Assembly: GCF_000455365.1 (NCBI RefSeq) | Contig: NZ_HG315684.1 | Location: forward strand, 457,611-521,610 | Reading direction: 5' to 3' | Length of the DNA: 64,000 nt | Origin: Halopiger djelfimassiliensis | GTDB lineage: Archaea; Halobacteriota; Halobacteria; Halobacteriales; Natrialbaceae | Shown here: positions 2,594 through 31,912 of the stretch, in pieces | Layout of the letters: every line of letters starts with the position of its first letter | Numbering within the stretch: the first letter of the stretch is position 1 | The notes under the pieces: generated by a model | Told to the model about the DNA's origin: nothing | What the model saw: the letters and a program-made list of their open reading frames with translations, nothing else | Database searches by the model: none | Made by a program: the position numbers and the translations under genes

Positions 2594-3703
2594 ATGACGC
2601 TCGAAGTCGGCGTGCTCGGCTACCGGTTCATGGGAAAAGCACACGCAAACGCCATGGCGCGGCTGCCGATGTTCTTCCCGGATGCACCGGATATCGAGCG
2701 CACCGTTTTGGTCGGCCGCGACGAGGACGCGCTGTCGGACGCCGCCGACCGGCTCGGATTCGACTCGATCGCGACCGACTGGGCCGACGTGATCGACGAC
2801 GTCGACGCCTTCTATAACCTCGGCCCGAACCACGTCCACGCCGAGCCCTCGATCGCCGCGCTCGAGGCCGGGACGCCGGTCTTTTGCGAGAAGCCGCTCG
2901 CGCCGACCCTCGACGAGGCCGAACGGATGGCCGCGGCGGCGCGCGAGGCGGACGTGCCCGCCGGCTGTGCGTTCAACTACCGGTTCGTGCCCGCGATCCG
3001 CTACGCGAAGGGGCTGCTCGAGGACGGCGAACTGGGCGAGATCCGCCACGTCCGCGGCCGGTACCTGCAGGACTGGCTCGTCGATCCCGAGGAGCCGTGG
3101 TCGTGGCGAAACGACGCGGAACTGGCCGGGTCGGGCGCGCTGGGCGATCTCGGCGCACACACCGTCGATCTCCTGCGGTTTCTGGTGGGCGATCTTGCGG
3201 GCGAGATGACCCGCGTGAGCGGCCACCTGCGGACGTTCGTCGACGAGCGGCCCGTCGAGGGCGGCGACGAGACCCGGCCGGTCACCGTCGACGACGCCTA
3301 CTCCGCACAGGTCGCGTTCGAGAACGGCGCGATGGGAACGCTGGAGGCCTCGCGGGTCGCGGCGGGGCACAAGAACGATCACACCGTCGAGATCCACGGC
3401 TCGAAGGGGAGCCTGCGGTTCTCGCTCGAGCGGCTGAACGAACTCGAGGTGCTCCGCGAGGGCGACCGGGGGTACGAGACGGTGCTGGTGACCGACGCGG
3501 ACGATCCGTATGTCGACCACTGGTGGCCGCCGGGGCACGTGCTGGGCTGGGAGCACACGTTCGTCCACGAGAACGACGAGTTCCTGCGTGCCGTCGACGA
3601 GGGCGGCGAGTTCCACCCGAGTTTCGAGGACGGCCTCGCCGCCCAGCGCGTGCTCGCGGCGATCGAGGAAAGCGACGAACGCGGCGAGTGGGTGTCGCTG
3701 TAG
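2594..3703 (+). CDS. Gfo/Idh/MocA family NAD(P)-dependent oxidoreductase
   Basis: Predicted sugar or inositol-type dehydrogenase of 369 residues, cytoplasmic. The N-terminal Rossmann fold starts with GVLGYRFMGKAHANA, a variant of the family's dinucleotide-binding motif. The family's EKP motif (EKPLAPTLDEAERM, near residue 97) supplies the catalytic-site lysine region. The C-terminal half is the MocA-type alpha/beta domain. It follows the GH3 glucosidase by 64 bases in the same direction, consistent with joint sugar metabolism, but a shared transcript is only inferred. The substrate is not determined. Confidence 0.9.
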   Translation: MTLEVGVLGYRFMGKAHANAMARLPMFFPDAPDIERTVLVGRDEDALSDAADRLGFDSIATDWADVIDDVDAFYNLGPNHVHAEPSIAALEAGTPVFCEKPLAPTLDEAERMAAAAREADVPAGCAFNYRFVPAIRYAKGLLEDGELGEIRHVRGRYLQDWLVDPEEPWSWRNDAELAGSGALGDLGAHTVDLLRFLVGDLAGEMTRVSGHLRTFVDERPVEGGDETRPVTVDDAYSAQVAFENGAMGTLEASRVAAGHKNDHTVEIHGSKGSLRFSLERLNELEVLREGDRGYETVLVTDADDPYVDHWWPPGHVLGWEHTFVHENDEFLRAVDEGGEFHPSFEDGLAAQRVLAAIEESDERGEWVSL

Positions 3704-22902: not shown

Positions 22903-23655
22903 TTACGACGGCGTTTCGGCGCTGGCCTCGATCAGTTGGATCAAAACGGCGGCGAACACCGATTCCGAACTCCAGATGGCGGTCTCACAGCCCTCGTCGT
23001 CGATCACGCTCAGCAGGATCCCGTCGTCGTCGGCGATGACGATCCGGCCGGACCGCCGATCGTCCTCGCGGTGGGCCGGCGGCGATTCGCTCGAGACGCC
23101 CTCGAGCGACCCGAGCCGGTCCCGAATCGAGGGGTTCTGGCTGACGGCGAGCACCGAAACGCCGGCGGCCGCCCGCGACGCGAGCGTCCGTTCGATCCGT
23201 TCGGGAACGAACTCCGGGAGTCGTGTTCCGAAGACGAGTCGATCGTCGGCGTTCGAGAGGAGTTCGACGACGCGGTCGTCGATCCGATCCCGGCCCCTGA
23301 TCGTCCAGATGTCCTCTTGTGTTTCCTCGCCGGCCGACTCCCGTTTGACTGCATCAACGTACTCGAAGGCACGCTCCTGTTCGCGCTCGAACCGCTCTCG
23401 CAGGGTCGTCCGGGCCTCCTCGACGCTGACCGGCCGGTAGCGGATCGGACTCGAGTGCTGGATCTCGAGCAGTCCCCGCTCCGCGAGGTTGTCGGCGACG
23501 CTGTAGACCTGCGAGCGGGGGACGTCGGCGACACGGGCGACGTCCCGTGCCGTTCCCGACCCGAGCCGGTGGAGCGCGATGAAGACTTTGGCCTCGTAGC
23601 TGGTCAACCCGAGCCGCTCGAAGGCATCGACGGCGTCGGGTTCGTCGACGCTCAT
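22903..23655 (-). CDS. TrmB-like transcriptional regulator of the RND exporter
   Basis: Protein of 250 residues. The N-terminal winged HTH is characteristic of TrmB regulators (LGLTSYEAKVFIALHRLGSGTARDVARVADVPRSQVYSV, about 17-55), followed by a coiled coil (about 75-105) and a C-terminal PLD-like sensor domain. TrmB proteins usually sense sugars or small effectors. The gene overlaps the start side of the exporter operon, its start lying 4 bases inside the exporter's stop, so the regulator is cotranscribed after the exporter it probably controls. Confidence 0.88.
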   Translation of the reverse strand: MSVDEPDAVDAFERLGLTSYEAKVFIALHRLGSGTARDVARVADVPRSQVYSVADNLAERGLLEIQHSSPIRYRPVSVEEARTTLRERFEREQERAFEYVDAVKRESAGEETQEDIWTIRGRDRIDDRVVELLSNADDRLVFGTRLPEFVPERIERTLASRAAAGVSVLAVSQNPSIRDRLGSLEGVSSESPPAHREDDRRSGRIVIADDDGILLSVIDDEGCETAIWSSESVFAAVLIQLIEASAETPS

Positions 23656-26600
23656 TCGTCGTCACCACCGGGCAGCCGGGACGCCTCCGAACCGTCGGCA
23701 CTCGTCCCCGCGTCGGTCGCCGTCCCGCCGTCGCTCGCGGTCGGGGTCGTCCGGCGCGCGCGTCGTTTCTCGAACGAGACGTCGGGACCGAAGTACCGCG
23801 TCCAGAGCACGAGCAACGTCGGGAGGACGATCACGCTGGCGAGAAACGCGTACGTGATCGTCAGCCCGGTAATGATCCCGAACTGACTGAGCACCGGCAG
23901 GATGGCGAAGGCGAGCGTTCCGAACCCGCCGATGGTCGTCGCCGCGCTGCCGAGCAACGCCCCGCCGGTGCCGGTGACCGTCGTCTCCATCGCGTCCCAG
24001 ACGTTCCCCTGTCGCTCCAACTCGAGCGTGTAGCGGGCGCTGATGTGGATGCTGTAGGCGACGCCGAGGCCGATCGTCAGGCTGGTTATCATGCCGGTCA
24101 GGACGTTGAACGGCATATCGATGAGGTACATCGTTCCGAGGATCCAGCTGACGGCGAACGCGACCGGAAGCAGGGTTACGGTCCCGAGCGTGGCGCTGTT
24201 GCCCGTCGCCCAGTAGGCCACCGTCAGGAAGGCGAAGACGGCGACGAGCGTGATCAGCAGGCTCTGGAGGACGGTATCGAGCAGGTCCTGTTCGACGATG
24301 TGGGTGACGATCGGATCGCCGGTCGCGATGGCGTTGCGGTCCGCGTCGTCGCCCGCGTCGATCGTCGCCGCGATGTCGCGCATCTCGGCGGTCGTTTCGT
24401 CGACGGCGGCATCGCCCTGAACGGCGACGAGCAAGCGGACCGACTCGTACTCGCCGTCGGCCGTCCGGTGGATAACGTCGCTCGCCCCGGCCTCGTTGAC
24501 CGCGAACAGTTCGTCGTACAGTTCCGCGACGTTTCGGTCCGGGACGCCGTCGCCGTCCGTGTCCGCGGCGGTGAACGAGGCGTTGAACGACTCGTTTTGC
24601 CCCGCCGTCTCCTCCATCACCGACAGCGGTCCCCGGACGTCCGCCTCGCCGTTCGGAAGGGTGTAGGTAACGTCGCTGGCGACGGCCTCGTCCCGTGCCC
24701 GATCCAGCCGCGCCATCGTCTCGGCGGTGGCGACGTCGCCGTCGACGAGGATCTGTGCCTGCGAGTCCTGTCGCTGGAAGTTCTCGTTGACATACTCGAG
24801 GTCGTCGGCCGCCCGATAGTCGCCGGGTTGCATCGGTGCCGGCAGGGTCTCGGTCCAGTCGGGCGGACTCTCGGCGAGGAAGTCCTCCTCCTCGAAGCTG
24901 GTATCGACCTGACTCGCCCCGTAGACGCCGCCGGCGGTGAGCAACAGGACCGCCACGAGGAGCACGATCGGCGCTTTTCTGGCGGCGACCGCGCCGACGG
25001 TGAGTGCGTCGCTGAACCGGCTCTCCCCGGTTCCGAACGCGCGCTTGTGCCGATCGAACCCGCGGGCCTCGAGTGCCGAATCGAGTTCGACTTTGGCCGC
25101 CGGGATCAGGCCGCCGAAGACGATCAACGCGGCGAGGATCCCGAACGAACTGACGACGCCGAACTCCCGGATCGGAGCGATCGGACTGACGAGGTTCGCG
25201 AGAAAACCGATCGCGGTCGTCGCGGTCACCCAGACGAGCGCGACGCCGACGCCGGCAAGCGCGACCGCCATCGAGCCGCGAACGCCGCGTGCGGTCCCCT
25301 CGCTCCCGCGTTGTTCCCGGTGGCGCATGAAGACGTGAATCGCGTAGTCGATCGAAAGGCCGATCAGGAGGACGGGAACGGCGACGAACATCTGGTTGAA
25401 CGCGATCCCGGTCCAGCCCATAAAGCCGAACGTCCAGACCAGCACCGTCACGATCCCCGCGACGCCGAGGACGATATCGAGGAGGTCGCGGTAGGCGATC
25501 AGCAACGCCGCGACGACGAACAGCAACGCCAGCGGGCCGACGATCGCGAGGCTGTCGCCCATCGAGCGGTCGATCTCGTCGGTGATGATTCCGGCTCCGA
25601 AGACGACGTACTCGTGTTCGTGGTCGGCCGCGAGATCACGAATGTCGATCTGGCTCTCGGTAAGCCGGTCGCCGACGCCACCCATCTCCATCCCGCTGCC
25701 GGCCGACGTCTGGGTGATCGCGGTCATCCGGGCGTCCGCCTCCGTCGACCCCGGCTCGTACGAGGACGGCATGAACGCAAGCGCCGCGTTGCGGTCGTCC
25801 CCGTCGTCCGACAGCGTTCGTTCGAGGACGTCGTCGAACGCCCCGTCGTCCATGTCCTCGAGCGCCGCGATCTGTTCCTCGAGCGGCGGCCGCTCGTCGC
25901 CGTCTTCGAGCGCCGCTTGCTCTCGCTCGAACGCCGCGAGGTCCGCCTCGAGTCGGTCGTACTCGTCCTCGAGAACGCCCATGGTCGCCCCGGCGTAGAC
26001 GTCCTCGAGTTGGGCCTGCAGGTCCTGATACTCGGGCTCCGACGCCGGATCGTCGGCGGTCCGTTCGATCTCGGCGAGCCGGCTCTCGATCCCCCGGGCA
26101 TCCCGGGCACGCTCCTCGTACTGGGCCGCCTGTTCGGCGTCCAGATCGGCCGTCGCGTTCCCGAGAACGGCCTCGTACTCGGCGTCCAGTTCCGCCGCCC
26201 GCTCCCGGTACTCGGGCGTGGTTTCGTTCGTCGTCTCGTTGAGCCGCTCGTACTCGCGCTGGATCTCGCGAACCTCGTCGATGCCGGCCTCGAGACGGTC
26301 GCGCGTCGCGTTGAGCCGCTGCTCTCGCCGTTCGAGTTCCTCGCCCCGGGCTTCCAGCTGCGCGACCCGCTCGTCGGTGATCGCGGTGATCGCGACGAGG
26401 TTCTCGACGCCGATGATCGGCTCCTCGTCGACGAGCGTCCCGTTGATCGACTCGTTTTCCCTGAGCGTCCGCTGGAACTCGAGGGACTCGATCAGCGATT
26501 CGCGCGTGAGAACGTTCTCGCCGTCCCCTCTGTCGATCAACTGGACGCTGGTCGTGTTCTCCTCGTCGGCGACGACGAACTGCTCGTCGATCTCCGCCAT

Positions 26601-26762
26601 CGCCTGCGCTTCGGGCGAGTCGGTCTCGAACTGCTCGAGCGAGGAGTCGTCGTCGACCATCGGCATCCCCGCACCGATCAGCGCCGTCGTCACGAGAAGC
26701 GCGACGAGAACGAGACGCGAACGGGAGGTAACGACGTCGGCGATCCGGTCCGGAACGCTCAT
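23652..26762 (-). CDS. RND/MMPL-family exporter with a large extracytoplasmic coiled coil
   Basis: RND superfamily membrane protein of 1036 residues with twelve predicted helices in two repeats. The first helix (about 17-36) is followed by a very long outside loop. Residues 130-305 of this loop are an almost continuous charged coiled coil containing several N-X-T sequons (NATR, NETTNETT, GNAT) that could be glycosylated. Helix block two begins near 390. A second extracytoplasmic region spans about 650-800. Typical transport motifs (GLSIDYAIHVFMRHRE, GLGVAYSIHISARY) identify the MMPL branch. The substrate is unknown (lipids, terpenoids or drugs are possible). Operon with the TrmB-like gene. 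Confidence 0.9.
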   Translation of the reverse strand: MSVPDRIADVVTSRSRLVLVALLVTTALIGAGMPMVDDDSSLEQFETDSPEAQAMAEIDEQFVVADEENTTSVQLIDRGDGENVLTRESLIESLEFQRTLRENESINGTLVDEEPIIGVENLVAITAITDERVAQLEARGEELERREQRLNATRDRLEAGIDEVREIQREYERLNETTNETTPEYRERAAELDAEYEAVLGNATADLDAEQAAQYEERARDARGIESRLAEIERTADDPASEPEYQDLQAQLEDVYAGATMGVLEDEYDRLEADLAAFEREQAALEDGDERPPLEEQIAALEDMDDGAFDDVLERTLSDDGDDRNAALAFMPSSYEPGSTEADARMTAITQTSAGSGMEMGGVGDRLTESQIDIRDLAADHEHEYVVFGAGIITDEIDRSMGDSLAIVGPLALLFVVAALLIAYRDLLDIVLGVAGIVTVLVWTFGFMGWTGIAFNQMFVAVPVLLIGLSIDYAIHVFMRHREQRGSEGTARGVRGSMAVALAGVGVALVWVTATTAIGFLANLVSPIAPIREFGVVSSFGILAALIVFGGLIPAAKVELDSALEARGFDRHKRAFGTGESRFSDALTVGAVAARKAPIVLLVAVLLLTAGGVYGASQVDTSFEEEDFLAESPPDWTETLPAPMQPGDYRAADDLEYVNENFQRQDSQAQILVDGDVATAETMARLDRARDEAVASDVTYTLPNGEADVRGPLSVMEETAGQNESFNASFTAADTDGDGVPDRNVAELYDELFAVNEAGASDVIHRTADGEYESVRLLVAVQGDAAVDETTAEMRDIAATIDAGDDADRNAIATGDPIVTHIVEQDLLDTVLQSLLITLVAVFAFLTVAYWATGNSATLGTVTLLPVAFAVSWILGTMYLIDMPFNVLTGMITSLTIGLGVAYSIHISARYTLELERQGNVWDAMETTVTGTGGALLGSAATTIGGFGTLAFAILPVLSQFGIITGLTITYAFLASVIVLPTLLVLWTRYFGPDVSFEKRRARRTTPTASDGGTATDAGTSADGSEASRLPGGDDE

Positions 26763-26993: not shown

Positions 26994-27728
26994 CTACTCG
27001 ATCGTGACCGTCTTCAGGTCCTCCGCGAACCGGACGTCGCCGTCGTAGTGGGTACCGATCGACTCGAGCATCTCCTCGTGTCGGCCGTCCGTGTGCGGGT
27101 AGAGGTGGGTGAGGTAGACGCGGCCGATCTCGCGGCCCGCCAGTTCGCGGCCGAGCGTCTCCGGGGTCGGATGGTTCGAGACGTCGATATCGTCCGGGAA
27201 CGAACAGTCGTGAGCGAGGATCGCCGACCCCTCCGCGAAGTTCGCCAGTCCTGCAAAGGCCTCGCTGTCGCCGCTGAACGTAAACAGGTCGCCGAAGCGG
27301 TAGGCCAGACACGGCAGCGAGTGGCGGGTCTCGTAGGCCGAGACGTCGAATCCGGCGACCGAGAACTCGCCGGGGACGACCTCCCGGACCTGCAGGTCGA
27401 GTTTGTCCTGCAGGTAGTCGTACACCGACAGGAGGTCGTCGACCAGCGCCTTCGTCCCCTGCGGACCGACGACCTCGAGGTGTTCCTCCCCGGCGAGCCA
27501 GCGGGCTTTCATCAGCGGCAACAGGTCGGCGACGTGATCGAGGTGATGGTGGGTCAGAAGTACCGTCGAGACGTTCTCGTAGCCGACACCGGACTGCTGG
27601 AGTCGGTGGAGAACGCCGGACCCGCAGTCGACCAGCAGGGTCCGACCGTCGTCCTGCACGAGGAGTCCGGCCTGAAAGCGCTCGCCGGTCGGCATCGCGC
27701 TGCCGGTCCCGAGAAAGGTGACACGCAT
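26994..27728 (-). CDS. MBL-fold hydrolase, RNase Z-like
   Basis: Metallo-beta-lactamase fold protein of 244 residues. It starts MRVTFLGTGSAMPTGERFQ and has the metal motif THHHLDH (about 61-67), a later H in TRHSLP, the FSGDSE aspartate (about 150), and a terminal HLYPHTDGRHEE histidine region. This ordering is the RNase Z/ElaC-like group, but it lacks the long exosite arm of true tRNA 3' endonucleases, so it may act on another phosphodiester. The ATG at 27728 is chosen over 9 upstream codons with no family support. Confidence 0.88.
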   Translation of the reverse strand: MRVTFLGTGSAMPTGERFQAGLLVQDDGRTLLVDCGSGVLHRLQQSGVGYENVSTVLLTHHHLDHVADLLPLMKARWLAGEEHLEVVGPQGTKALVDDLLSVYDYLQDKLDLQVREVVPGEFSVAGFDVSAYETRHSLPCLAYRFGDLFTFSGDSEAFAGLANFAEGSAILAHDCSFPDDIDVSNHPTPETLGRELAGREIGRVYLTHLYPHTDGRHEEMLESIGTHYDGDVRFAEDLKTVTIE

Positions 27729-27847
27729 GCGAGAGCGTGTGTCCGGCCCGGGCAAAAGGATTCGGGTTCCGCGGATTCCCCGGTCAGGACGACTGCGCCG
27801 TCGTGTCCGGAACGGCGTTCCGTACGTTTCCTCGATGACCCCGCTCG

Positions 27848-28045
27848 CGTGAGCGCGATCAGTCCGAAGCCGACCTTGGTGAGCAGGTCCAGATAGACGA
27901 TCAACATGATATCGACCGAGAGCACGCCAAAACCGGCCGACCCGAGCAACCAGACGATCGGATACACCGACCGGAGGACGACGGTGAGGTTCCGGAGGCT
28001 CGTAAACAGCAGGCCGACGCCGGCCGTCTGGCGGCGACGAATGAC
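27848..28045 (-). pseudogene. sop2: Remnant of a sensory rhodopsin II gene (helices F and G)
   Basis: Read on the minus strand, this stretch encodes the last part of a microbial rhodopsin. RRQTAGVGLLFTSLRNLTVVL corresponds to the loop into helix F, VYPIVWLLGSAGFGVL to helix F and the F-G loop, and VDIMLIVYLDLLTKVGFGLIAL to helix G. The retinal-binding lysine (in LDLLTKVGFG, codon 27875-27877) is kept. These phrases match the Natronomonas pharaonis SRII end region almost word for word as I recall it. The first five helices are missing: upstream, the frame has no start codon and meets a TGA near 28108. No HtrII transducer gene is near. I read it as a decayed 3' fragment. Confidence 0.8.
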
Positions 28046-28299
28046 TACGATACGTGCGGCATGAAGCTCGTCACGGAGTTTTGATCGCCACTCGTTTCGA
28101 CCGCGTCACTCGACTCGTACGGACCGATTCCCGCGGGCTCGGAATCGACAAAGGGGTCTCCGGACTGAATCCTTTCCCCAAACTAGAAGGCCGATGTCTC
28201 GCCTCGAGTACTACGACACGCTTCCGTCCGCGATCGTCCCGTGTCATCAGGCGATGGTGTTCCCCCTTCGATCCCGTAGCCCGACGACGAACGACGACG

Positions 28300-28974
28300 T
28301 CACCCGAAGAACGCCCCGAATACGGGAACCACCCAGACGAGTACGTGCGCACCCGCAACCGGCACCAGCGTGCGACGCCGTATGTAGACGGCGATAAACA
28401 GCGCGGAGACCGCAGCGACCTGGACCAGATTTCCGAGCGGCCACGCGACTGCGTGTACGACGGTAAAGCCGATCAGCGTAAGCCCGCCTGCCACGACCGC
28501 ACTGTCCGAGTAGTCGAGGAGCCGTTCGATGGCGTACCCCCTGTACAGAACCTCTTCGACGATGCCGGTCGTGATCGCGGACGCAAGCGCCACGGGGAGA
28601 CTCGGGAGCTCCCCGAGTCCGCTCGTGCCTGCCTCGACGGGGAGTCCGAGGGCCTGAACGAGCGGCCCGGCGAAGACGAAGATCAACAGCGCGGCCACAC
28701 CGGTTCCGAGCAGATACGCTAAATCGATCCAGGCCGGACGTCGAAACCCGATCGACGAGAGCGACAGATCCTCGACGCCGAGCGCACTGCCGATGACCGT
28801 GACGGCGACGAGCCACTCGAGCACGATCGCTTGCGGCTGCGAGACCGCCACCGCCGAATCGGCGAGGGAAAGCGCGGGTAGTGCACCCATCGCAATCGCG
28901 AGCGTCACTGCGGTCACGACCGGAACCTCCGCGAGACTCGCTATCGGACTCGTTTCGTCCGCCGTCCGTGTCAT
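28300..28974 (-). CDS. CPBP-family intramembrane metalloprotease
   Basis: Membrane protein of 224 residues with about six hydrophobic segments. The Abi/CAAX protease motifs are present: EEVLYRGYAIERL (about 140), where the paired glutamates and Arg sit, and later FTVVHAVAWPLGN (about 170), which supplies the second metal-side histidine. In bacteria and eukaryotes members cleave prenylated or signal-like peptides, and some serve bacteriocin immunity; the haloarchaeal role is unknown. The gene is divergent from the Lhr helicase. Confidence 0.87.
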   Translation of the reverse strand: MTRTADETSPIASLAEVPVVTAVTLAIAMGALPALSLADSAVAVSQPQAIVLEWLVAVTVIGSALGVEDLSLSSIGFRRPAWIDLAYLLGTGVAALLIFVFAGPLVQALGLPVEAGTSGLGELPSLPVALASAITTGIVEEVLYRGYAIERLLDYSDSAVVAGGLTLIGFTVVHAVAWPLGNLVQVAAVSALFIAVYIRRRTLVPVAGAHVLVWVVPVFGAFFG

Positions 28975-29134
28975 ACACGGTGTTTTCCACGATTCGAGTT
29001 AATTCTTATGTAATTGTTACTTTTGGCTGGCCACACAGGAATCAGCGCGATCTACCGTTTCCCGATCCGCACCCGATTTCACTTTCGCTCCGCTGGCCAA
29101 ATCCTCTTACGTACCCGGTCCCGAGACCACGGTG

Positions 29135-31912
29135 ATGGCTGGGAACGAGCGCCTCGAGTTGCCGGTCTCCGATTCTTCGCTCCCGTTCGATCCGGACGCG
29201 GTCCCGATCGAGGACGCCGACGTCTTCGACCTGCTCGAGCCGGCCGTCCAGGAGTGGTGGCTCGAGCAGTTCGGCGAGTTCGTTCCCGAGAACGAGGGCT
29301 TTTTTACGCCGCCACAGCGGGGCGCGATCCCGACGGTCCACGAGGGGACGAACACGCTGATCTGTGCCCCGACCGGCTCGGGGAAGACGCTCGCATCGTT
29401 TACCTCGATCATCAACGAACTCTACAGGCGCGACCGCGAGACCGAGTCGGGACTCGAGAACTCCGTCTACTGTCTTTACGTGTCGCCGCTCAAGTCGCTC
29501 GCGAACGACATCCACCGCAACCTCGAAGTGCCCCTCGAGGGGATCGAGGGGATCGTCGACCGGCGCGACGGCGACCGGGAGATGGGCGAGATTCGCCACG
29601 CCATCCGCCACGGCGATACGGCCTCGAGCGAACGCCAGAAGATGCTCGAAAAGACGCCCCACATCCTCAACACCACGCCCGAAACGCTGGCGATTTTGCT
29701 GAACTCGCCGAAGTTCCGCGAGAAACTCCGGACCGTCGAGTACGTCATCGTCGACGAGATCCACTCGCTTGCCGCGGGCAAGCGCGGCACCCACCTCTCG
29801 GTCAGCCTCGAGCGACTCGCGGCGCTGGCCGACGGCGGAATCACGAGGATCGGCTGCTCGGCGACGATCGACCCGCTCTCGGACGTCGCCGAGTTTCTCG
29901 TCGGCCGCGCGGAACCCGGCGGCAAGCCCCGGGAGTACGAAATCGTCGACGCACGCTTTGCCCGCGAGTTCGACCTGCAACTCGAGTGTCCGACCGACGA
30001 CCTGATCAACACGTCCCGCGAGGTCGTCCAGGAGCGGTTTTACCGGCGGCTCCACGATCATATCCAGACCCACACGAACACGCTCGTATTCACCAATACC
30101 CGGTCGGGGGCGGAACGGGTCCTGCACAACCTCCGCGAGCGGTTCGACGCCTACGACGAGGAAAACTCCGGCTGTCACCACGGCAGCCTCTCGAAGGACG
30201 TCCGACAGGACGTCGAAACGCGGCTCAAGGAGGGTGGCCTCGACGTGGTCACCTCCTCGACGAGCCTCGAGCTGGGGATCGACATGCCCCACGTCGACCT
30301 CGTGGTACAGGTCGGCTCCCCCAAGTCCGTCGCGGCGCTGCTCCAGCGGGTCGGCCGCGCGGGCCATCGCGTCGGCCAGACCGTCATGGGCCGGGTGATC
30401 GCGCTCGACCGCGACGAACTCCTCGAGTGTGCCGTCATGCTCAACAAAGCTACCGAGGGATTCGTCGATTCGGTGTCGATCCCGGAGAACGCACAGGACG
30501 TCGCGGCCCAGCACGTCTACGGCATGGCGATCGCCGAGATCCGGCCCGAACGCGAGGTGAAAGCGATCCTGCGGCGGGCATACCCCTACCGGAACTACTC
30601 GAGCGAGGGGTGGGAGTCGCTGGCCCGCTATCTGACCGCCGAGTACGCCGGGCTGGAGGAGCGAAACGTCTACGCGAAGATCTGGCGCGACGAGAACGAC
30701 CCGCCGGACGGCCACCACCACCACGAGGAGTTTCCGGTCGGCGAACCGCTGATCGGCAAACGCGGCCGGCTGGCGCGGGTCATCTACATGACCAACATCG
30801 GAACGATCCCCGACTCGTTTACGTGTGAGGTCTACACCCGCGCGAGCGACGAGTGGGTCGGACAACTCGACGAGGACTACCTCGATACCCTCGAGAAGGG
30901 GGACGTCTTCGTGCTGGGCGGCGATCACTTCGAGTACCGCTACCGGCGCGGCTCGAAGGTCTACGTCGACCGCACAAGCGATCGACCGACGGTCCCCTCG
31001 TGGTACTCCGAGCGATTGCCCCTCTCGTACGATCTCGGCCGTGAAATCCTGTCGTTCCAGGGGGAACTGCTCGAGCGCTACGACGAGGGTGGCCCGCCGC
31101 GGGTCCGGGCGTGGTTGCGGACGTTCCCGCTTGATGACGACAGCGTCCGGGCGATCGCCCGACTGTTCGACCATCAGCTCCGGTATGCAGGCGAGGAAAG
31201 CGTAAGCACCCGCGACCGGATCGCGATCGAGGTCGAGCGCGACCGCGAGGAGTACGAGCGCCACTACTACGTCCATTCGACGTACGGCCGGAAGTTCAAC
31301 GACGGGTTCGCCCGCCTGCTGGCATATCGCTGTGCCCAGGAGGCGACCGCGAACGTCCGCGTGGCGGTCGCGGACAACGGGTTCGTGCTCTCGATGCCGT
31401 TGAATCGCAAGGTCGATCTCGAGGGGCTCGTCGACGACCTCGAGCCCGAAACCGTCCGGGCGGACCTGCGGGCGGCCCTCTCGGGGACCGATCTCCTCCA
31501 GCGGTACTTCCGGATCAACGCGACCCGATCGCTGCTGATCCTCAAACGCTACAAGGGCTACGAGAAGTCCGCCAGCGAACAGCAGGTCTCGAGCGAGATG
31601 CTGCTCGGCTTCGCCGAGGATCTCGAGGAGTTCGCGGTCATCGAGGAGACCTACCGCGAGATCCTCGAGGATAAACTCAACGTCGAAGGGATCGAAGCCG
31701 TCGTCGAAGCGATCGACGACGGCGAGATCGTCGTCGAGCGACACCTCGTCGATTCGCCGACGCCGCGATCGTTCGGGCTGGCGACGCTGTCGGCCAGCGA
31801 CGTCGTCCTCGCCGAGGACGAAAGCGCCGCGTTACAGGCGTTTCACGAGCACGTGCTCGAGGAGATCGGCGAGGAGTCGCTTCGCGGCCTCTCCTCGGAC
31901 CCGGTCGACTAG
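29135..31912 (+). CDS. Lhr-type ATP-dependent DNA helicase
   Basis: Superfamily 2 helicase of 925 residues, from the ATG at 29135. Motifs in order: Q-like motif FFTPPQRGAI, Walker A APTGSGKTLASF (about 73-84), Ia SPLKSLAND, DEIH box VIVDEIHSLAAGKRG (about 207), SAT GCSATIDPL, then the second RecA domain with TNTRSGAERVL and SSTSLELGIDMPHVDLVVQ, and QRVGRAGH. The winged-helix and Lhr-core C-terminal domain follow. The length fits Lhr-Core. In archaea these act in replication-coupled repair and 3'-5' DNA unwinding. An adjacent in-frame GTG at 29132 is an alternative start. Confidence 0.92.
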   Translation: MAGNERLELPVSDSSLPFDPDAVPIEDADVFDLLEPAVQEWWLEQFGEFVPENEGFFTPPQRGAIPTVHEGTNTLICAPTGSGKTLASFTSIINELYRRDRETESGLENSVYCLYVSPLKSLANDIHRNLEVPLEGIEGIVDRRDGDREMGEIRHAIRHGDTASSERQKMLEKTPHILNTTPETLAILLNSPKFREKLRTVEYVIVDEIHSLAAGKRGTHLSVSLERLAALADGGITRIGCSATIDPLSDVAEFLVGRAEPGGKPREYEIVDARFAREFDLQLECPTDDLINTSREVVQERFYRRLHDHIQTHTNTLVFTNTRSGAERVLHNLRERFDAYDEENSGCHHGSLSKDVRQDVETRLKEGGLDVVTSSTSLELGIDMPHVDLVVQVGSPKSVAALLQRVGRAGHRVGQTVMGRVIALDRDELLECAVMLNKATEGFVDSVSIPENAQDVAAQHVYGMAIAEIRPEREVKAILRRAYPYRNYSSEGWESLARYLTAEYAGLEERNVYAKIWRDENDPPDGHHHHEEFPVGEPLIGKRGRLARVIYMTNIGTIPDSFTCEVYTRASDEWVGQLDEDYLDTLEKGDVFVLGGDHFEYRYRRGSKVYVDRTSDRPTVPSWYSERLPLSYDLGREILSFQGELLERYDEGGPPRVRAWLRTFPLDDDSVRAIARLFDHQLRYAGEESVSTRDRIAIEVERDREEYERHYYVHSTYGRKFNDGFARLLAYRCAQEATANVRVAVADNGFVLSMPLNRKVDLEGLVDDLEPETVRADLRAALSGTDLLQRYFRINATRSLLILKRYKGYEKSASEQQVSSEMLLGFAEDLEEFAVIEETYREILEDKLNVEGIEAVVEAIDDGEIVVERHLVDSPTPRSFGLATLSASDVVLAEDESAALQAFHEHVLEEIGEESLRGLSSDPVD

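Follow-up and report, generated by a model that had tools for sequence, protein, structure and literature searches.

The sop2 Locus of Halopiger djelfimassiliensis

The window, by which we mean the whole 64,000-nucleotide stretch of Halopiger djelfimassiliensis DNA that was analysed, contains a short segment resembling the end of sop2, the gene for sensory rhodopsin II (SRII). It is set between two intact genes, one for a metallo-beta-lactamase (MBL)-fold protein and one for a CPBP/Rce1-like membrane protease, with an MMPL/Patched-type gene and a large helicase-like gene, putatively lhr, as further markers of the locus (Table 1). SRII binds retinal through a lysine of helix G and relays its blue-light signal via the transducer HtrII to the chemotaxis pathway. 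We place the SRII-like codons at 28030-27851 on the minus strand, a refinement of the interval 27848-28045 given in an earlier note on this DNA; 254 bases separate position 28045 from the next gene (28300).

Table 1. Features of the sop2 locus and of the second opsin locus in the same genome
Feature	Position	Strand	Remarks
MMPL/Patched-type gene	23652..26762	minus	further locus marker
Metallo-beta-lactamase-fold gene	26994..27728	minus	intact; locus marker; start at the ATG of MRVTFLG
Probable C-terminal tail remnant	27819..27851	minus	HASGVIEETYG vs NASAVIEAERG, in another frame; from nucleotide alignment and position
sop2 remnant	27851..28030	minus	covers helices F and G (SRII codons ~152-213) with the retinal lysine; Arg for Trp in the pocket; F-G loop 2 codons short
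Putative deletion junction	28029..28030		would join the htr2 upstream spacer to sop2 codon ~152; clear in 1 of 9 relatives
Spacer remnant, upstream of htr2	28030..28238	minus	aligned to L041 about 3430-3641
Second small ORF, 5' end (MSRLEYYDTLPSAIV...)	28194..28240	plus	divergent; remainder does not align to the intact L041 version
CPBP/Rce1-like membrane protease gene	28300..28974	minus	intact; neighbour on the other side
Helicase-like gene	29132..31912	plus	further locus marker
Lysine-less opsin (L002), 247 aa	C1:917617-918357	minus	sole PF01036 match besides the remnant
Lysine-less opsin and HtrII-like HAMP/MCP transducer, overlapping	L002 1387-3566 / L033 5615-7989 (G000:C1)		

The translation of the segment, QTAGVGLLFTSLRNLTVVLRSVYPIVWLLGSAGFGVLSVDIMLIVYLDLLTKVGFGLIAL, comprises 60 residues that match helices F and G of SRII. 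Pfam PF01036 (Bac_rhodopsin) matches it with 55 bits (E 1e-14) over profile positions 156-218 of 224, and the best matches in a phmmer search of the PDB were SRII chains (E 5.3e-16 to 9.6e-16), with bacteriorhodopsin from 4.5e-13. The alignment to NpSRII (PDB 1jgj, 1h2s and others) spans residues 151-212 of that protein and 60 of the 65 query residues (E 5.3e-16), and the retinal-binding lysine of helix G is present in the motif YLDLLTKVGFG. At the protein level, among 17 loci (L034-L050), the remnant shares 65-77% identity with 15 SRII-type copies, 57% with the opsin of L049 and 50% with that of L047; identity to the opsins of L003-L032 is 41-51% (50 matching rows).

Unlike NpSRII, the remnant is without five of the helices, a start, a stop and a transducer, and it carries Arg in place of a pocket Trp; of the seven-helix architecture with start and stop, only helices F and G are there. 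Among the reading frames of the window, neither helices A-E nor a start codon could be found at the remnant: past the upstream stop, its frame offers no start before GTG 27967, midway through helix F, and no htr2 or other transducer gene adjoins it. The earlier note had described the segment as the helix F-G end of a rhodopsin, retinal lysine included, with no start, no helices A-E and no transducer, a description with which all of these results agree.

The Same Slot in Other Natrialbaceae

We searched 125 Natrialbaceae genomes for PF01036. The MBL-fold gene was found in 123 of them, and in nine (G009, G010, G011, G033, G034, G036, G039, G040 and G096, one of which is a metagenome-assembled genome) intact sop2 and htr2 lie upstream of it. 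In these syntenic loci sop2 (235-243 aa) is the next gene upstream of the marker, 69-569 bases away, and overlaps the upstream htr2 (554-619 aa). The remnant occupies the same slot, in the same orientation, as sop2 of these relatives, for example Halopiger goleimassiliensis (L142), Natrarchaeobius chitinivorans AArcht7 (L131) and Natrialba swarupiae (L179), whose two genes, unlike those of the remnant locus, are both complete. The fragment therefore lies in the orthologous slot, and a remnant in that position is direct evidence for loss in the H. djelfimassiliensis lineage.

Another six genomes carry SRII-type genes away from this locus (L034, L036, L037, L042, L043 and L050), and five of these fall in a supported clade separate from the syntenic copies; the remnant itself was not placed with support in the SRII tree. 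A search for further remnants began with 148 loci, of which eight were dropped for want of a marker gene at 60% identity. In the 140 that were left, duplicates included, no further clear sop2 remnant was seen up to 6 kb upstream of the marker beyond that of the window; the upstream sequence extended to 1500 bases for L053-L082 and to 274 for L141 and L199, so that other remnants may exist. SRII-like matches in this search came from the window (L001, L053), from the nine relatives with intact genes and four duplicates of these, and from L122 and L123, where they were weak (31%, E 4e-3) and more than 5 kb away.

On a tree of the MBL gene (112 distinct rows, built by a quick method from one gene, with weak deep support), absence of sop2 requires 8 changes against a mean of 9.7 after shuffling, with 19 of 500 shuffles as low; when all three states are considered, 3 of 200 shuffles are as low. 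Absence is thus weakly clustered, and gain and loss are indistinguishable on this tree. The window groups there with 47 rows that have no sop2 at the locus (SH-aLRT 83), as would be expected had the fragment never been resident and had a piece of sop2 been acquired by recent transfer. We consider such a history very improbable, as the fragment shares both place and orientation with sop2 of nine relatives and an htr2-type upstream spacer lies on the far side of the junction, while the tree in its favour represents a single gene with weak deep support.

The Putative Deletion Junction

Upstream of the remnant, local alignment of the spacer to the relative locus L041 gave a score of 103.6, compared with a maximum of 44.2 from 100 mononucleotide shuffles, and reaches position 28030. 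Relative to L041, about 2243 bp (~2.2 kb) are missing, which correspond roughly to the last 96 bp before htr2, the whole of htr2 and sop2 codons 1-151. For the other eight relatives, seven spacer alignments fell below the null maximum, and that to L045 lay above it (57.8 versus 44.6) and is gappy, so that we judged it unreliable. The final 56 bases of the L041 alignment are ~66% identical by eye, and a few htr2 codons may remain. Most likely, a single deletion would have taken htr2 together with the leading two thirds of sop2, after which smaller changes would have broken what remained of sop2.

An htr2-sop2 fusion had been suggested by a tblastn match of the HtrII N terminus immediately before the fragment (E 2.85e-6 at best among the matches listed, in a tiny search space). 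We dropped this candidate because the spacer alignment accounts for the sequence, as that upstream of htr2, down to 28030.

The spacer also holds the 5' end of a second small open reading frame, intact in L041 and several other relatives and cut to its first codons at 28194 here. Pfam gives no match for the intact version in L041, which is 83 residues long, and several other Natrialbaceae have similar small open reading frames close to the helicase-like gene.

Lesions in the Remnant

In the nucleotide alignment the remnant lacks six bases in the F-G loop and a single base directly after helix G. The latter gap probably represents a frameshift, judging from the aligned sequences, and would appear to be a true mutation. 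Beyond it, a probable remnant of the C-terminal tail continues in another frame; we identify it by its position and the nucleotide alignment, because the tail pieces alone give chance-level matches as protein (E about 2.5). Neither frame of the remnant meets a stop codon before the next gene, and the frame of the MBL gene is open for 358 aa.

Among 32 columns that are invariant in the nine intact copies, the sole private change of the remnant is a Trp to Arg substitution, at the position of W171 of NpSRII by alignment. W171 is counted among the residues of the retinal cavity in the available text of Becker et al. (2016; PMC4915679), and the retinal pocket of the remnant is not intact at this position. 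pN between the remnant and the nine intact copies is 0.15-0.19, and among the intact copies it averages 0.135 (range 0.008-0.168, 36 pairs), with pairwise pS near 0.45 and close to saturation. As the remnant is little worn and its single private change at invariant sites lies within the range of the intact copies (0-2 each), substitutions alone do not show decay. The slight wear suggests that decay was probably recent, with the reservation that pN/pS is a crude method.

An open frame and a mild substitution pattern could also be expected if a short membrane peptide of helices F and G were still made from the remnant and had some role. We regard this as highly improbable, given that no in-frame start precedes GTG 27967 inside helix F, that an Arg sits in the retinal pocket, that the frame runs into the next gene with no stop of its own and that no transducer adjoins it.

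Retinal Synthesis and Motility Genes

The H. djelfimassiliensis genome (G000) is a draft of 3.78 Mb in 6 contigs, 96.66% complete, and its assembly gave no match to PF15461 (Brp/Blh-type, retinal synthesis). In a set of 14 genomes, all nine that have canonical opsins (G060 plus eight of the nine syntenic ones) gave a match to this family, against 0 of 4 without, H. djelfimassiliensis having none either. Across the family, 72 genomes have a high-scoring opsin, a class defined by score (best PF01036 E below 1e-30) irrespective of the lysine, and PF15461 exceeded the cut-off in 63 of these and in 0 of the 53 without such an opsin; a sub-threshold match in G122, which belongs to the latter, was left uncounted. 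None of 14 named control genomes matched, and the sensitivity of PF15461 therefore rests on the relatives. The marker is imperfect, given that nine genomes (G029, G030, G032, G037, G045, G097, G116, G124 and G117) have a high-scoring opsin without it. Completeness is as low as 66% in G116 and 53% in G124; the remaining seven may obtain retinal otherwise.

A tandem-domain lycopene cyclase, present in all nine canonical-opsin relatives tested, was likewise not found in the H. djelfimassiliensis assembly, where the lycopene-cyclase domain family has only one, weaker match (50 bits), of the single kind that all 14 genomes tested share. Six of the nine syntenic genomes have a PF15461 gene at a distance of 2.8-3.7 kb from sop2. 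The cyclase search covered all of these six but G034; the cyclase is near sop2 as well in G011, G033, G039 and G096 and is located elsewhere in G036. Sensor, transducer and retinal synthesis thus form one cluster in several relatives. Motility and chemotaxis matches are kept in H. djelfimassiliensis (6 CheW, 14 MCP and 6 archaellin).

At 96.66% completeness, genes could hide in gaps of the assembly, and errors in a 6-contig draft might produce both the one-base frameshift and the 2.2 kb gap from a true genome with intact sop2-htr2. We find this scarcely credible, with the locus inside a contig of 1.18 Mb between intact neighbours, the adjoining small open reading frame likewise cut, and both PF15461 and the tandem-domain cyclase missing from the whole assembly.

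Evidence for Loss of Sensory Rhodopsin II

We conclude, with a probability of about 0.93, that the fragment is left over from sop2 and non-functional. The earlier note had read it as a decayed SRII gene that records loss of the receptor in this lineage, and had proposed a search with SRII, a comparison with relatives and a look for other rhodopsins. That reading is supported by similarity, synteny and the missing parts: the likeness to SRII is strong in both PDB phmmer and Pfam, nine relatives carry intact sop2-htr2 at the same locus, and besides the remnant PF01036 finds just one opsin in the genome, which lacks the lysine. The lysine-less opsin and its transducer, the missing PF15461 and lycopene cyclase genes and the second trimmed open reading frame are additions to that note. 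Sensor, transducer and retinal-synthesis markers are missing together, motility genes and a non-canonical opsin are kept, and the gene content suggests that the cells have lost retinal-based phototaxis.

The patchy rhodopsin content of haloarchaea is ascribed, in the available part of PMC1885257, to both gene loss and lateral transfer. In Haloquadratum walsbyi, sensory rhodopsin was lost along with motility genes, according to the accessible text of PMC4500146, and such loss is thus already known. The remnant is an ordinary pseudogene of a known kind, and its value lies in an unusually clear context; among the papers listed by the literature searches none describes an SRII remnant of a similar kind, and a prior report may exist.

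The Surviving Lysine-less Opsin

PF01036 has two matches only in the H. djelfimassiliensis genome, the remnant and the lysine-less opsin L002. In the latter a leucine replaces the Schiff-base lysine (YIEVILLVGFGG), and by eye Y174 is changed to L and W178 to G. Its gene overlaps that of a 544-aa HAMP and MCP transducer, which matches the whole HtrII membrane domain with 35-41% identity over 92-95 residues (best E about 1e-19), while the other MCP loci of this genome give weak or partial matches to that domain (best E 1.9e-5). In a tree from which published ORP sequences were absent, the opsin and two relatives that also lack the lysine (K to R) form a group on a very long branch (4.21).

As far as the available text of Becker et al. 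(2016; PMC4915679) goes, ORP group B is defined by replacement of the lysine by Leu or another hydrophobic residue, 17 of its 32 members are linked to a HAMP/MCP transducer, non-light sensing is proposed for ORPs, and crtY and brp are lacking in all eight species that have ORPs and no canonical opsin. With its K to L change and adjoining HAMP/MCP transducer, the predicted pair fits group B as presented there; the sop2 remnant differs from that group in keeping the lysine. Of 53 genomes with an ORP-like match (one query, E 1e-8, so that groups may be mixed), 26, H. djelfimassiliensis included, have no high-scoring opsin, and PF15461 exceeds the cut-off in 0 of the 26.

It is conceivable, though we hold it somewhat less likely than the contrary, that this lineage is seen soon after loss of retinal-based light sensing, with a lysine-less opsin and its HtrII-like transducer as the only opsin system, one that must sense something other than light absorbed by retinal. 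If true, the lineage would be a natural setting in which to test whether ORPs are, as proposed, non-light receptors outliving the photoreceptor.

Two further opsin genes may be decayed. A C-terminal ORP-like stretch with two internal stops in G036 (C3:3403766-3404002) is a probable opsin remnant, and an ORP-like match in G040 (C43:26147-26875) with one internal TGA is possibly another.
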